Shown piece after piece: positions 57,670 to 63,434 of a stretch of DNA of 64,000 nt (the first letter of the stretch is position 1; each line of letters opens with the position of its first letter). The position numbers were made by a program, and so were the translations under genes. Below the pieces are notes generated by a model, which saw only the letters and a program-made list of their open reading frames with translations, was not told the DNA's origin and searched no databases. Origin of the DNA: a virus; IMG/VR virus record IMGVR_UViG_3300008516_000951, positions 1 through 64,000 of that record; one strand, 5' to 3'.

Positions 57670-58725
57670 TCAAACAGAAGCGTGGCCAATTCCGGTCGAA
57701 CCGTTTTGGTCGGCCCTCATTTGGGGAACCATAATGTTCATAACTTTGAAGTTGACTTGAAGGCCGCCGAATGAATCCCACTGAACCGTAGTGGTATTCA
57801 TACCGATTACTTCGCGTACAACATCAGCAGTCATTTGAACCATCAGAATATCATAATTCTGCAACCAATCCGATGTATTCAAACTTACAAAATCCCCAAC
57901 AGAAAGAATACGTTCACGAAGTGTAGTAGCCAAAGCAGTCTTGAAGTCTTCATCAAGATACGTGTCCCAACTTGGAGCGTTGTACAGCAACCACGGGCCG
58001 TGGTAATGAATGTTTTTCATCTGCTGACGCAAACCTAACAATTCAGTTATCAATGTGCTACCAGTCCAGCCAGCAGCCGCCGGAGAAGTGAAAGTCGCTG
58101 TTCTACGCGCCGGATAGTTGGTGTAGCCATAAATAGTGCCACCACCATATACATAAGTAGATAGCCTGCCCAATAACATCTGTTCATTACTTTCAGCCAC
58201 TTTGCGGGCAGCCAGTTCGGCCATCGTTGTATCAAGCGGTGAATTACCACTACGAGAAATAGCAATCTGCCGAGCCGAAAACATAAAATCCTTATGAGTT
58301 ATTGGCAACGGTAAATTTGTCAACTCATAAACGGGACGGTCATTAGGATTATCCCTTAATCCGTCCATACTGATAGAGGCATCGTTAATGTCACTTTGCG
58401 TTTCAGTTTGGAACACTGATTTTCCCATTCCATTAGGAATGCTATAAGTCAATCCCTTCCCCAAAAGGTCGGCCACGGCACGTAATCTTTCACGAGCTAC
58501 TTTAAGAACAGCTTCGTCCAAATGTATCCAGTCGTCCTTACGCAACGTCGCTGTAGCATTAGCCGCCAAAGGCACAGCTTTGGGTTTGCTATACCTATCG
58601 TTTTGGGTGATATAACTTTTCCCATCTTTCCCAATATAGGGCCGCAAAGCATTAACATTAAAATTAGAGGCCAACAACTTACTTGCAACATCGCCACTGG
58701 CCTGACCGTTCATAATAAAATCCAT
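57670..58725 (-). CDS. Major capsid protein (HK97 fold), 351 aa
   Basis: The protein follows the protease and decoration genes and has the size and organisation of encapsulin-type capsid proteins: a long N-arm, ELTNLPLPITHKDF in the E-loop area, a helical P domain (AARKVAESNEQMLLG) and a C-terminal strand region (VNFKVMNIMVPQMRADQNG). ATG 58725 uses GAAAGGA. It forms the head shell. Confidence 0.85.
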   Translation of the reverse strand: MDFIMNGQASGDVASKLLASNFNVNALRPYIGKDGKSYITQNDRYSKPKAVPLAANATATLRKDDWIHLDEAVLKVARERLRAVADLLGKGLTYSIPNGMGKSVFQTETQSDINDASISMDGLRDNPNDRPVYELTNLPLPITHKDFMFSARQIAISRSGNSPLDTTMAELAARKVAESNEQMLLGRLSTYVYGGGTIYGYTNYPARRTATFTSPAAAGWTGSTLITELLGLRQQMKNIHYHGPWLLYNAPSWDTYLDEDFKTALATTLRERILSVGDFVSLNTSDWLQNYDILMVQMTADVVREVIGMNTTTVQWDSFGGLQVNFKVMNIMVPQMRADQNGSTGIGHASV

Positions 58726-58789
58726 TGTAAATCCTTTCAAACAAACAAAAACAATTCACTTAACTTCACTTCTTTCCTCGAAAGCAAAA

Positions 58790-59285: not shown

Positions 59286-60836
59286 TTAGGAATCTTCTTT
59301 TGCCCCAACAAAATCATTCACTGTCGGAGCAAGCAAAGGCTCCTCTATATACCCATCACGATTAACCACCGGAGCTTGCCCACCATAATTAGGCAAGTTC
59401 GTTACCAACTCATCATTATCTTCCTCAGCCAATACTGCAATTTGTCGAAGCTCTTCCAAATCCTTTTCCATTAACTGCTCTTTGGTAAATGTATTCTTTT
59501 CATTAGCAGTAATTTTTTCAATGACATTCGCCACATCAGCTTCATAAGATTTGATGCCGTTAATAAGCACCCTTTGTATTTTCAGAGGAAACGTCGTAAT
59601 ACATTCTTGTAATGTAGTAGGCTTCTTCTCCTCAATATTGGTTTCCACTTTGCTTTCAATATCCACTTGTTTGTCTGTCCTTTTTTCCTCTACCTTTTCC
59701 TCGGTAGCAGTCTCATCAATTACTACCTTTTCCTCGGTTTCATTGACGATGGGGACCATCTTTTCCAAGTCGCCCTTATCTATCTTCATTAGTTTCTCAC
59801 GGTCTTTTTCATCCCAATGAGTAGTCTCGTTGGTAATAAGACCATCTACAATCACTTTCTTATCCATTTCAATTTCCTTTCTATTAACCATTTCAATTGT
59901 TCCACTAAAATTAGCCACAAACGTCCCGTCTTTCGTACGATACTCTACTACACGAATAACCTCTTGAGGACCATCAGCAAATTCCACACCGCCTTCCTTG
60001 ATAACATATAATTGCTTAAACAAAGCACCGTCATTTTCATAAATGAAGAAATCATCATATACACTTTCAACATACGCATCTTCCAACTTGTCTCGCAAAA
60101 GGCTGCTCAGCAAGTTACTCGTTTCACCAAAACTCATATCCACATTCAATCTCAAAAACCCCGCCCCATCCTCTACCGAGCAAGCACCTTTCAAATCTGG
60201 CAATAAAGCCAAATGGTCCGGCCTAAAGTTTCTTGCAATAGCTTGATAAGTTTTACCATTGAATTCCCCCTCTTGACTCTCGTTATCGGTAAATAACCCG
60301 GTGGACAATTCCATAATCTTGTTATTCTCCACCGCTTCCATAATACGGTCATCCACTGCATTCATTCTATTTATTTCCATCCAAGCCTCTGCTTTCAACT
60401 TACCATCCTCAAAAGTGGTGTTCATTATCACACCAATTTTCCGATTGGTCAGAATATCCGGGTCGCACGCACTTATCGGCTGGCCATTGTATTTGGGATG
60501 ATAAACAATGACAGGTTTTGCATTCCAAACAACCGGAGTTTTAGCCATCTCATCAGCCGGGTACAATATAGGGCCCCCACTGCCATCCAATACCCCTTCC
60601 ACCATCATAATCATAGGGGCAACCAAATAATCTCTACCCTCCATCGAATCGTGTCGAACATTTCCTGTGAAATTAGCTGTGAGTTTCAACATTTGATTCT
60701 CCTTATAACCAGATGCCTTAATAGCAGCCCCCTGCTTTGCCGCCTTAGCCTTAGCACCTTCACCTATATAGCATTTACCACTCTTGCCCCACTTCCATCC
60801 TTCCTTACCATCTTTTATACATCTTTGTACTGGCAT
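59286..60836 (-). CDS. Prohead protease (DUF2213) fused to scaffold, 516 aa
   Basis: Residues 50-235 are the DUF2213 protease: PVVWNAKPVIVYHPK, GKLKAEAWMEI, IMELSTGLFTDNE and RNFRPDHLALLPDLKGACS with its Ser/His/Asp set. From about 330 a helical, Glu/Lys-rich region (ETEEKVVIDETATEEKVEEK) acts as scaffold. It cleaves itself and capsid precursors. The N-terminal 40 residues are a Cys-containing basic segment. SD GAAGGA. Confidence 0.82.
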   Translation of the reverse strand: MPVQRCIKDGKEGWKWGKSGKCYIGEGAKAKAAKQGAAIKASGYKENQMLKLTANFTGNVRHDSMEGRDYLVAPMIMMVEGVLDGSGGPILYPADEMAKTPVVWNAKPVIVYHPKYNGQPISACDPDILTNRKIGVIMNTTFEDGKLKAEAWMEINRMNAVDDRIMEAVENNKIMELSTGLFTDNESQEGEFNGKTYQAIARNFRPDHLALLPDLKGACSVEDGAGFLRLNVDMSFGETSNLLSSLLRDKLEDAYVESVYDDFFIYENDGALFKQLYVIKEGGVEFADGPQEVIRVVEYRTKDGTFVANFSGTIEMVNRKEIEMDKKVIVDGLITNETTHWDEKDREKLMKIDKGDLEKMVPIVNETEEKVVIDETATEEKVEEKRTDKQVDIESKVETNIEEKKPTTLQECITTFPLKIQRVLINGIKSYEADVANVIEKITANEKNTFTKEQLMEKDLEELRQIAVLAEEDNDELVTNLPNYGGQAPVVNRDGYIEEPLLAPTVNDFVGAKEDS

Positions 60837-61012
60837 ATATCATATCCTTCATTATTCGATAGAATACGACCAAAGAAAGAAAGTATAAAAGGATTTTTGA
60901 AGGTGAATCAGAAATGAATCACAAAACCATACAAAATATATATATATGATTTGAGAGAAAGTGCTTGAAATAGGTATATTTATCAGAAATAGGTCTAATT
61001 ACAAAAGCATCC

Positions 61013-61076
61013 AAATAAAAAAGGCTTACCAGCTATAAAAATCAGAAGATGCAAATCAAGAAAGCTGGTAAGCCTT
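61013..61076 (-). terminator. Strong intrinsic terminator of the 61.0-61.4 kb RNA
   Basis: AAGGCTTACCAGCT (61021-61034) and AGCTGGTAAGCCTT (61063-61076) pair over 14 bp without mismatch. Reading on the - strand the stem ends in AAGCCTT and runs into TTTTATTT. It would end transcripts begun at promoter P3 before the prohead protease gene unless read-through occurs. Confidence 0.75.
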
Positions 61077-61362
61077 CACTTTGGAGGAGATGTGCCGAAA
61101 AAGTTGGGGGCACATCAAGTGCTCGCATTGAGGAGGAGGAGTAGATGGGGAATAACAAAACACTCAATGGCCCCCGAACCAACCTATTTCTTCAATTGTA
61201 TGATAGCAGGTTGGGAAGGGGGAAACGCTGACAAAACCTTCCCAACCAAGAAGACATCCTTGTCTTTACATCCCGGCACGTGAGAACATCAGCAAAGCAC
61301 ATCGCCGGGCGTCCTTGAGTCCCAACGGAACACATCAGGAGAATCCCATTTCTCAAGCGTTC
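61013..61362 (-). ncRNA. Structured RNA candidate, about 350 nt
   Basis: No gene occupies 60837-61404. From P3's start point near 61362 to the terminator the - strand can form: CTTGAG/CTCAAG (61314-61319 with 61352-61357), CCCGGC/GCCGGG (61272-61277 with 61304-61309), GGTTGGGAAGG/CCTTCCCAACC (61209-61219 with 61237-61247, 11 bp), GATGTGCC/GGCACATC (61089-61096 with 61109-61116), and the terminator stem. The region 60837-61012 beyond is A+T-rich with nothing obvious. Confidence 0.55.
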
Positions 61363-61364
61363 CA

Positions 61365-61400
61365 CCTATATTATCAAATTAACTCAGTGCTTCCTGCCAA
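61365..61400 (-). promoter_or_regulatory. Repeated phage promoter element, copy P3
   Basis: Read on the - strand it starts TTGGCAGGAAGCACTGAG and ends TTTGATAATATAGG, the same element as P1 (7774) and P2 (17318). It begins 5 bases after the stop of the gpF-like gene and drives the structured region 61013-61362. Confidence 0.7.
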
Positions 61401-61404
61401 AAAT

Positions 61405-63285
61405 TTATAATAATTCTTTTCCCGCCCACACACTACGCCTTTCTATTTCTCGATAAGAACGTTTGATAGTTTTGGGACCTTCGGACTTTATACTCTTTTT
61501 CACGGCTGTTTTACCACGCTTCCCCCACAATTGACCTTTCTGTTTCATATTCTTTTCCGCAGGCATCCAACTGCAACGACAATTATGGCTTGCAACATTA
61601 TTAGCAATATAATATGATTCAGTAGTTTCTAAATTATAGATATACCCCAAATAATGAAAGGCTTTACAATGAACAATAGAAGCATTCACAAAACGAGTAT
61701 CATTACAAAGACGTCTTGCAATTTTCTTATCCCGTTGTCTATCAAAAAAATTGCAAAACTTTACAAACAAGGAATGTCTGAAAATGCTCTTTCCAAACAA
61801 TTTAATGTAAGCCGCAGTACTATACGAAATCGCCTTTTGTCCACCAATATTCATATCAGAACCCAAAGTGAAGCGGAAACGATAAAATGGGCTAATATGA
61901 ATCTGATTGCAAGAGCCAATCAAGTTAGAGCCGCACATAAAGCAAGAATCGGACAACAAGTGTCGTGGACAACCAAATGCAAACGCGCCAAGACTATTGA
62001 GAAACATCCGCCTAATAATTCGCCATACGAAATCAAACTTGCGAAAATGCTGTTGAAAAGAGGGATTAAAACTATTCCCCAAAAAGCAATTGGAGGATAT
62101 AACTGCGACCTTGCTGCCTATCCCGTCGCCGTGGAAGTCTTTGCTGGAAAGTGGCATTGGTACGGAAATCACATCGCTATTACTGAGAAACGATTCCGCT
62201 ATATCCTCAATTCTGGATGGTTTATCTATGTCGTTGCAATCAACAATTCTTTCCCTCTCACTGATGCTGTTGCACATCACCTCGCTTCCTATATCCAAAG
62301 TATTCGCAGGGACAAACCCATCAGATGTCAATATCGGGTGGTTTGGGGTGCAAACGAATTTATCACCAAAGGAAGTCTTAAAGACAAACATATCTCCATC
62401 ATACCACCGTTTACTAACACCCGTGATTCCACCACCGGGCGTTACAAGCGAATCAGGAGGTAAGCAATTCGGATGTCGAGGAATTAAACCACGTGCCTCC
62501 TTAACTGTCATCACCACACCCTCTAAATCCCCACACAAAGGGCACACCCTATCATCCCCAACCGTACTCCACTCGGCCATTACCGTTATCTCTTTCACAC
62601 CCAAATGTTCAAACGCATCCAATTGTCCTTCGGCGTGGGCGTGTATGATTTCAGTGCGGGCCAAGGTTAAAGCCCTGGTGTTAGTAATTTTAGTAACGTT
62701 GTTTCTCAACTCTCGTGCTATCTTTCTTGGACTATAACCCTTAACCAAACCCTCACTTAATATCCGGGACATTTGCTGACTCATCGATGATGTAACACCT
62801 TTCAATTCTTCAAACGTACGGGTGCTCAGTAATTCGATTTTATTCAACAATTCCGGGGCGTCAAATGCAGTCCGTAGAAATTCAGCCTTACCACCCAAGA
62901 AAAACTCATCACCTTCCATAGCCAACTCAGCAGCACGTAAATCAGTGTAAGCCCTCAACCCACCTTTGCGATAAGCTGATTCAACATAAGTGCCTGTCCA
63001 AGGTTTTCCTGTTATAGCATCAGTAGTCAATATCTTGGCGTCAATTTGTTGCTGGAGCCATTTCTGATATGCCTGGGCCTTTTGGGCAGATGTATTGAAA
63101 CGCCAAGCCTGCCTCTCCTGCAAAATGGCCAATTCCTTTCGCTCCTCCAATCCAAAGACATCGTCGGTTACTATCAACGTTTGGATAGCTTTGGATACAC
63201 TTTTGAATCGGCGTTTCATATCGGCACAGAATTTACGCCGAAGCAAGGTGGTCCTCGTCGGGTCACGTTTGAGTTGGTTAGGCAT
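61405..63285 (-). CDS. Mu gpF-like head morphogenesis protein interrupted by an intein, 626 aa precursor
   Basis: The flanking sequences (1-273 and 569-626) form a Mu gpF/SPP1 gp7-like minor head protein: TLARTEIIHAHAEGQLDAFE, then zinc ligands CPLC (248-251), HPN(271-273) joined to CRC after splicing. Between them lies a complete intein, residues 274-568. The gene starts in a TAATG overlap with the 49-aa Gly-rich protein. The mature protein would be 331 aa, normal for the family. It should act at the portal during head assembly. Confidence 0.9.
   Translation of the reverse strand: MPNQLKRDPTRTTLLRRKFCADMKRRFKSVSKAIQTLIVTDDVFGLEERKELAILQERQAWRFNTSAQKAQAYQKWLQQQIDAKILTTDAITGKPWTGTYVESAYRKGGLRAYTDLRAAELAMEGDEFFLGGKAEFLRTAFDAPELLNKIELLSTRTFEELKGVTSSMSQQMSRILSEGLVKGYSPRKIARELRNNVTKITNTRALTLARTEIIHAHAEGQLDAFEHLGVKEITVMAEWSTVGDDRVCPLCGDLEGVVMTVKEARGLIPRHPNCLPPDSLVTPGGGITGVSKRWYDGDMFVFKTSFGDKFVCTPNHPILTSDGFVPANTLDIGSEVMCNSISERERIVDCNDIDKPSRIEDIAESFLSNSDVISVPMPLSSKDFHGDGIGSKVAVISSNCFLGNSFNPSFQQHFRKFDFVWRIIRRMFLNSLGAFAFGCPRHLLSDSCFMCGSNLIGSCNQIHISPFYRFRFTLGSDMNIGGQKAISYSTAAYIKLFGKSIFRHSLFVKFCNFFDRQRDKKIARRLCNDTRFVNASIVHCKAFHYLGYIYNLETTESYYIANNVASHNCRCSWMPAEKNMKQKGQLWGKRGKTAVKKSIKSEGPKTIKRSYREIERRSVWAGKELL
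61582..62466 (-). mobile_element. Intein (295 codons) whose centre holds an antisense endonuclease gene
   Basis: Splicing motifs are complete: block A begins at Cys274 (CLPPDSLVTPGG), block B is TPNH (313-316, His316), block F is GYIYNLETTESYYIANN, and block G is VASHN with His567 and Asn568, followed by Cys569. No LAGLIDADG or HNH motif is seen in residues 345-540. That segment is antisense to the + strand gene at 61669. Inserted in the HPNC/RC zinc motif. Confidence 0.9.
61669..62463 (+). CDS. Antisense homing endonuclease (Vsr/EDxHD-like), 264 aa
   Basis: It begins at ATG 61669, 7 bases after the phage-type SD GAAAGG (61656-61661); an ATG at 61654 lacks an SD. Residues 26-60 form a helix-turn-helix (SENALSKQFNVSRSTIRNRL). 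The core SPYEIKLAKMLLKRG (Glu121), GYNCDLA (Asp147), VAVEVFAGKWHW (Glu156, His163) and RYILNSGWFIYVVAI match the EDxHD/Vsr nuclease pattern. It ends at TAA one codon inside the intein. Its codons align in register with the intein codons on the other strand. Confidence 0.8.
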   Translation: MNNRSIHKTSIITKTSCNFLIPLSIKKIAKLYKQGMSENALSKQFNVSRSTIRNRLLSTNIHIRTQSEAETIKWANMNLIARANQVRAAHKARIGQQVSWTTKCKRAKTIEKHPPNNSPYEIKLAKMLLKRGIKTIPQKAIGGYNCDLAAYPVAVEVFAGKWHWYGNHIAITEKRFRYILNSGWFIYVVAINNSFPLTDAVAHHLASYIQSIRRDKPIRCQYRVVWGANEFITKGSLKDKHISIIPPFTNTRDSTTGRYKRIRR

Positions 63286-63434
63286 TATCCCTTTCTTCCA
63301 GTCCCTTTACCCCTACCCCCTCCTTTACCACGGCCCGGCCCACCTTTACTACATCCACCAGTATTCCTATTACGGCCCCCACCGCCTGAACGCCCTGTCC
63401 CTTTACCTGCACCCTTTTTTACGCCATAAGCCAT
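63285..63434 (-). CDS. Gly/Lys/Arg-rich small protein, 49 aa
   Basis: GAAAGGAC precedes ATG 63434. The product is nearly all Gly, Lys, Arg and Ser (KGAGKGTGRSGGGGRNRN, GGPGRGKGGGRGKG) with one Cys. Its stop overlaps the gpF-like start as TAATG. Such a disordered basic peptide could bind DNA or RNA inside the head or during packaging. No family recognised. Confidence 0.65.
   Translation of the reverse strand: MAYGVKKGAGKGTGRSGGGGRNRNTGGCSKGGPGRGKGGGRGKGTGRKG

Follow-up and report, generated by a model that had tools for sequence, protein, structure and literature searches.

A question raised by this locus is whether a long frame that lies open antisense to an intein is a gene in its own right and, if so, whether its start signals are written into the codons of a conserved splicing motif. 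The window, i.e. the whole stretch of 64,000 nucleotides analysed here (positions 1 to 64,000 of IMG/VR virus record IMGVR_UViG_3300008516_000951), holds a gene for a MuF-like minor head protein that is interrupted by an intein, and on the opposite strand a second frame nearly fills this intein, extending from next to block F as far as codon 2. The features of the two genes are as follows (precursor numbering for residues of the head protein).

61405–63285, minus strand: MuF-like minor head protein precursor, 626 aa, intein-interrupted (PF04233, E = 5.5e-11; phrog_758/15127, head morphogenesis)
61582–62466, minus strand: intein, 295 aa, CLPPDSLV...ASHN, inserted between HPN and CRC of the MuF protein
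62305–62355, minus strand: intein block B (VCTPNHPILTSDGFVPA), with T40 and H43 invariant or nearly so in alignment A6
61597–61644, minus strand: intein block F (YIYNLETTESYYIANN), site of the ancestral antisense Shine–Dalgarno sequence (SD) and start
61582–61596, minus strand: intein block G (VASHN), followed by Cys+1 at 61579–61581
61669–62463, plus strand: putative antisense homing endonuclease gene, 264 aa, with the codon registers of both genes aligned
61741–61824, plus strand: helix-turn-helix (HTH) domain, nuclease residues 25–52 (PF02796, E = 1.4e-5)
62023–62268, plus strand: Vsr/EDxHD-like nuclease core with the conserved residues E121 (62029), D147 (62107) and E156 (62134), invariant in alignment A5
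62125–62136, both strands: doubly locked codons, nuclease V153-A154-V155-E156 and intein D114-G113-H112-F111

Taken as a whole, the locus is best explained as a mobile intein with a homing endonuclease gene on its opposite strand, in codon register with it, and we put the probability of this explanation at about 0.88. It builds on open conserved frames, selection on SD and start, nuclease homology and presence/absence alleles, all of which are observed; the transcription, translation, splicing, cleavage and homing of the element are predicted from sequence. The minus strand would be read within the MuF head protein, from which the intein would splice itself out, and the plus strand would be read separately, from an SD and start of its own at the C-terminal end of the intein, into a two-domain nuclease. 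The insertion site in MuF genes without the intein would be the target of this nuclease, and repair of the cut would copy the intein into them. The SD and start of most relatives are the reverse complement of block F codons; in the window, they would have been re-made 27 nt further in.

The window intein carries Cys1, TPNH, the terminal HN and Cys+1, with Cys1 and Asn invariant in alignment A6, and the family intein profile matched solved inteins with E values down to 5e-11. PF14890 was matched in 78 of 80 family members, the window intein itself staying under the Pfam cut-off (25.2 of 35.8 bits). That a working head protein is required implies that the predicted intein would be removed by protein splicing.

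On the plus strand, a profile of the nuclease alignment A5 matched 3r3p, the catalytic domain of I-Bth0305I, with E = 4e-6 (7.5e-6 for alignment A1, which was dropped for the collection scan as too diverse), and the nuclease family profile matched the DUF559 endonuclease-like protein 3hrl with E = 3e-7. E121, D147, E156 and R175 are conserved in the nuclease; the His-Asp part of EDxHD is not placed without a structure. The first, N-terminal HTH of the relatives is absent from the window nuclease. By homology, the plus frame thus appears to be a real gene, encoding an HTH plus Vsr/EDxHD-like homing endonuclease related to I-Bth0305I. Its codon position 3 stands opposite intein position 1, and its TAA stop faces the TTA codon of intein Leu2.

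The arrangement is not confined to the window phage, but recurs in well over a hundred phages unrelated to it. A tblastn search with the nuclease matched 120 phage records, and the matches listed lay, where the annotation was informative, under genes annotated as head proteins. Together with scans of IMG/VR and GTDB genomes this gave 139 loci, selected by nuclease homology only, in phages and prophages from several bacterial phyla, including contigs labelled Gemmatimonadales, Rubellimicrobium, Glycomyces, Bavariicoccus, Chloroflexi and Melioribacter. In 138 of the 139, at GC contents of 0.37–0.73, the aligned antisense (intein) frame is free of stops across the whole match, and the other two frames contain stops in nearly every locus. 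The N- and C-terminal motifs of the intein are intact where they can be assigned. As single-linkage clusters at 45% identity merge 94 of these loci, statistics were redone with one sequence per cluster.

Nearly all members interrupt a MuF-like head gene, and do so at one shared conserved Cys motif. The single locus of the 139 without the antisense intein frame is that of Acinetobacter phage IME285 (L014, 455–1348), in which the nuclease is free-standing and convergent with an adjoining intein-free MuF gene, possibly as an ancestor or an escapee. In L122 the nuclease is a pseudogene beside an intact intein, and in L153 its middle part is deleted, leaving a 194-aa mini-intein; nuclease and intein are, by these three cases, separable. 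In phage fEg-Eco06 (L017) the insertion lies at a different conserved MuF Cys, between STT and CRARDG, so that at least two insertion sites exist.

How, then, does the nuclease gene start? The initial annotation had placed an SD and a start codon for the antisense frame inside the codons of block F, and had argued from this that the frame is translated and not just open by chance. The relevant elements on the plus strand (CCCCAAATAATGAAAGGCTTTACAATGAACAAT) are the following.

61630–61632, plus strand: in-frame stop TAA, which bounds the open frame on its upper side; in most relatives the ancestral SD (GAGGTT) occupies this place
61642–61644, plus strand: ATA, relic of the ancestral start codon; ATG or GTG here in 88 of 119 relatives
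61656–61661, plus strand: SD GAAAGG, opposite the codons of Ala542-Phe543-His544
61669–61671, plus strand: nuclease start codon ATG, opposite His539

The letters confirm the two signals and their spacing of 7 nt, the minus-strand codons being His539 at 61669–61671, Ala542 at 61660–61662, Phe543 at 61657–61659 and His544 at 61654–61656. GAAAGG followed by ATG after 5–9 nt occurs 21 times in the window, mostly at gene starts, against 3.3 ± 2.3 expected, and 61656 is its sole plus-strand occurrence in the minus-oriented half. Upstream of 42 clear phage genes, GAAAGG is found in 10 and AAAGG in 12 cases; to describe such sites as used throughout this phage was therefore somewhat strong, the motif being common but not universal. 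An alternative in-frame start, ATG 61654, overlaps GAAAGG and has no SD, and its equivalent in L149 is unusable, as an in-frame stop intervenes before the conserved start; 61669 is thus the likely start. Also, the leader of the major capsid gene (58720–58740, GAAAGGATTTACAATGGAC) and that of the nuclease (61656–61673, GAAAGGCTTTACAATGAAC) are nearly identical.

In the window, these signals stand beside rather than inside block F. The Y-N-L-E of block F is encoded at 61627–61638, with Tyr550 as its Tyr, and the SD lies opposite residues 6–8 positions N-terminal of Tyr550, which are variable among relatives. The claim that the start signals had to be written into the conserved splicing motif therefore fails as worded for the window, but a position inside block F is exactly what is seen in 85 of 113 relatives. 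There, the start is antisense to the His of the motif G-H-V-Y-N-L-Q/E and the SD is antisense to N-L-Q/E; for instance, CAT GTT TAT AAC CTC CAA on one strand is TTG GAG GTT ATA AAC ATG on the other. The block F Leu is CTC in 70 of 83 sequences, whereas the background for these genes is 28% (12 of 14 when each cluster is represented once, p = 1e-5), a synonymous choice which shows selection on the antisense SD in block F. Moreover, an SD of 4 nt or longer stands before 98 of 113 starts versus 73 of 428 internal in-frame ATGs (p = 5e-44), or, with one sequence per cluster, 20 of 26 starts versus 14 of 101 internal ATGs (p = 1e-9), with the remaining 15 of the 113 starts lacking such an SD. Since GHIYDL is present in the solved intein of MJ0781 too, the block F motif is generic and as such lends itself to being read as an antisense start.

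The window belongs to a subgroup in which this state has been altered. Tyr (or Phe) replaces the block F His in the window and in L004, L020, L021, L022, L023, L024 and L149, which turns ATG into ATA, AAA or GTA (His to Tyr, hence ATA, in the window), and the old SD is now an in-frame TAA in several members (at 61630 in the window). Exactly 27 nt downstream, every one of these has an ATG instead, preceded by an SD of its own, be it AAAGG, AAAGGA, GGAG, GAGGTG or GGAGGT. In L149 and L021 a stop between the old and the new place makes the new ATG the first possible start; L149 also retains AAGGTT at the old SD place. The best reading is that the start of the subgroup was lost and then re-made 27 nt downstream with a new SD, under double constraint, and that the window SD lies beside block F because the ancestral start and SD inside block F were lost and replaced. 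A loss of the SD from related inteins that keep the nuclease frame, which would have spoken against a functional start, was not what the nine members showed: all keep the position of the ATG and an SD of 4–6 nt. Conservation of GAAAGG itself holds for the presence of an SD, the AAAGG spelling being kept in only some of them.

Both strands of the overlap are under selection. The nuclease genes contain not a single TTA, CTA or TCA among 29,273 codons, and in overlapped genes 2,166 Leu and 1,939 Ser codons include none of the three; host exteins use TTA/CTA and TCA freely (692 of 3,621 Leu and 331 of 2,440 Ser codons). In every subgroup pair compared, the nuclease is more similar than the intein (66% and 54% identity, respectively, for the window and L004), with nuclease third positions varying most in nearly all. 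In the exteins and in blocks F–G the intein third position is the fastest; along the nuclease body this pattern flips at the overlap borders and the nuclease third position becomes the fastest, and opposite blocks A–B both frames are slow. At the catalytic V-A-V-E, codon choice is nearly fixed (GCC in 103, GTG in 95 and GAA in 96 of 105), nuclease third positions being frozen there because the intein reads F-H-G-D. Thus, the earlier conclusion that the plus frame is a gene and not a chance opening has held up, by its conservation, its nuclease homology and the selection on its SD and start, with start signals within intein-coding DNA. The intein motif DFHGDG (residues 110–115 of relatives) is itself nearly invariant. 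FHGD probably has a function of its own, since the motif is kept where the nuclease is a pseudogene (L122) or deleted (L153).

Evidence on mobility comes from relatives of the window phage. Alleles with and without the intein, including a precise empty site, exist in closely related Jersey phages: ZCSE7 and K53 align without gaps on either side of the site and are set apart by exactly the 816-nt intein, K53 being the intein-free form. Among 349 Jersey-type MuF gene records, 58 cover 80% or more of the interrupted gene, and in many others the match is confined to its two flanks, with about 55% coverage. Co-conversion of the flanks was rejected as proof of homing, because the comparison of ZCSE7 with K53 gave a textbook profile but the dip recurs in controls without the intein, i.e. 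divergence peaks at the site in intein-plus/minus pairs and equally in minus/minus pairs. In the intein-free Jersey phages L159 and L162–L164, the region between –240 and +120 nt relative to the empty site shows unusual variability. Within the window subgroup, the nuclease core is about 64% identical and the MuF N-extein 36%, which suggests that the element has moved between hosts.

Could the plus frame nevertheless be something other than the gene of a homing endonuclease? Among antisense frames, the aligned ones are those that stand open by chance most often, and this one might be a mere shadow of a conserved intein and of rare-codon avoidance, with GAAAGG and ATG brought together by accident. 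This notion, to which we give hardly any credence, is already refuted by the codon-position and codon-choice tests, as conservation is higher in the frame of the nuclease than in that of the intein and SD and start force synonymous choices in block F; the matches to solved nucleases and the free-standing copy in L014 also speak against it. A nuclease that is real in the family could, however, be silent or decaying in the window phage, its frame merely being open. The missing first HTH, the disappearance of the ancestral SD and start, the lack of a strong promoter and the decayed relatives L122 and L153 fit such a course, but we hold it to be improbable, given that nine of nine subgroup members keep the new start with an SD, that E121, D147 and E156 are present in the window nuclease and that purifying selection on the nuclease frame is seen in L004, which is about 64–66% identical. 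Finally, the nuclease might cut DNA for purposes other than homing, e.g. target the genomes of rival phages, with the intein as a harmless berth. The flank profile is indeed not a clean homing signature, but nearly all relatives interrupt a MuF gene at the shared conserved Cys motif, the free-standing relative in L014 also lies beside MuF, and presence/absence alleles exist, so this use is, if anything, a shade less probable still than silence or decay.

For a mobile intein with an antisense homing endonuclease, the plus strand would also have to be transcribed within a minus-strand operon, and a single candidate element lies close upstream of the start.

61590–61618, plus strand: weak promoter-like TTGCAA-17-TATGAT, candidate, antisense to blocks G/F

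It scores 9 of 12, which is not above synonymous recoding, and was rejected as a promoter for not exceeding shuffles, as was TTGAGA-18-TATATT at 60951–60980 on the same strand; TTGCAA and TATGAT hexamers occur at the same place in L021 and L149. The initial annotation had seen no obvious plus-strand promoter, which is right for the window, with this weak element only, but not for some relatives, which have consensus promoters. Sigma-70 sites scoring at least 12 are found upstream of the start, antisense to blocks F–G, in 8 of 96 loci, versus an expectation of 0.9 under synonymous recoding and none in extein windows. Several read TTGACA-18-TATAAT and others are of the extended –10 type, mostly with the –10 at –34 or –51 from the start, and the block G Ser is TCA in 17 of 39 versus 8%. 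By these counts, it seems rather doubtful that plus-strand messages arise only by read-through from distant plus-strand transcription, although the weak window promoter and the many GC-rich relatives without a consensus promoter would suit that idea. We lean, with some reserve, towards regarding the last approximately 30 intein codons as an old and widespread two-way cassette, which forward would encode blocks F–G and backward would supply promoter, SD and nuclease start, with start sites lost and re-made. Its SD and start part is well supported, and for its promoter part support comes from a minority of loci.

The open-access papers searched contained no description of an endonuclease encoded antisense to an intein; a subscription paper could exist. 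In classical mobile inteins (LAGLIDADG or HNH), intein and homing endonuclease likewise form one mobile unit inserted at a conserved motif, with empty alleles, but the nuclease forms a domain within the intein polypeptide itself, in the same strand and frame, whereas here it is a separate opposite-strand gene overlapping the splicing domain. Fractured-gene split inteins with a free-standing EDxHD gene have reportedly been described by Dassa et al. in 2009. With these, with EDxHD homing endonucleases in general and with I-Bth0305I the present family shares the nuclease superfamily (by profile), an HTH part and the association with inteins; those genes, however, lie in introns or between split halves, and not antisense within an unsplit intein. 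The capsid morphogenesis protein intein of phages Snoke and LSPA1 has been published, with no endonuclease gene mentioned (PMC6776784). Both phages (L001 and L161) are members of the present family, and the element published as an intein only was here found to contain the antisense nuclease gene as well. The nearest published case is an insertion in the methylase of ShiLan, which conceals an out-of-frame HNH endonuclease and has no detectable intein (PMC11855218). In both, the insertion leaves the frame of the host gene open and hides a homing nuclease in a different one. In ShiLan, however, the nuclease is of the HNH type, read from the host gene's own transcript, without splicing domains or an SD and with the opposite strand unmentioned; the present family is antisense, has a real intein, and has SD and start under selection.

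What had been a single coincidence of SD and ATG thus becomes a testable rule, namely that the gene on the opposite strand sets the codon choice of block F. The family offers a large, apparently old, full-length antisense overlap of two selected proteins, with a likely function known for each strand and with the two separable, so that theories of overlapping genes concerning codon register, locking of shared codons and turnover of start sites can be put to the test with natural sequences. A further suggestion is that what look like mini-inteins in the head genes of phages carry a hidden homing endonuclease, which gene-calling pipelines rarely call and which would change the count of active mobile inteins. 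In phage PK2 (L165, 519–1328) the antisense frame has been annotated, as hypothetical protein XRA40007; it is rarely called otherwise.

Downstream of the MuF gene, the 330 nt up to the terminator have no Rfam match and no evident function, and no Rfam matches were obtained anywhere in 60830–63300. The terminator itself, at 61022–61076 on the minus strand, is a 15-bp hairpin followed by a T run (z = –6.7) and is a strong intrinsic terminator.
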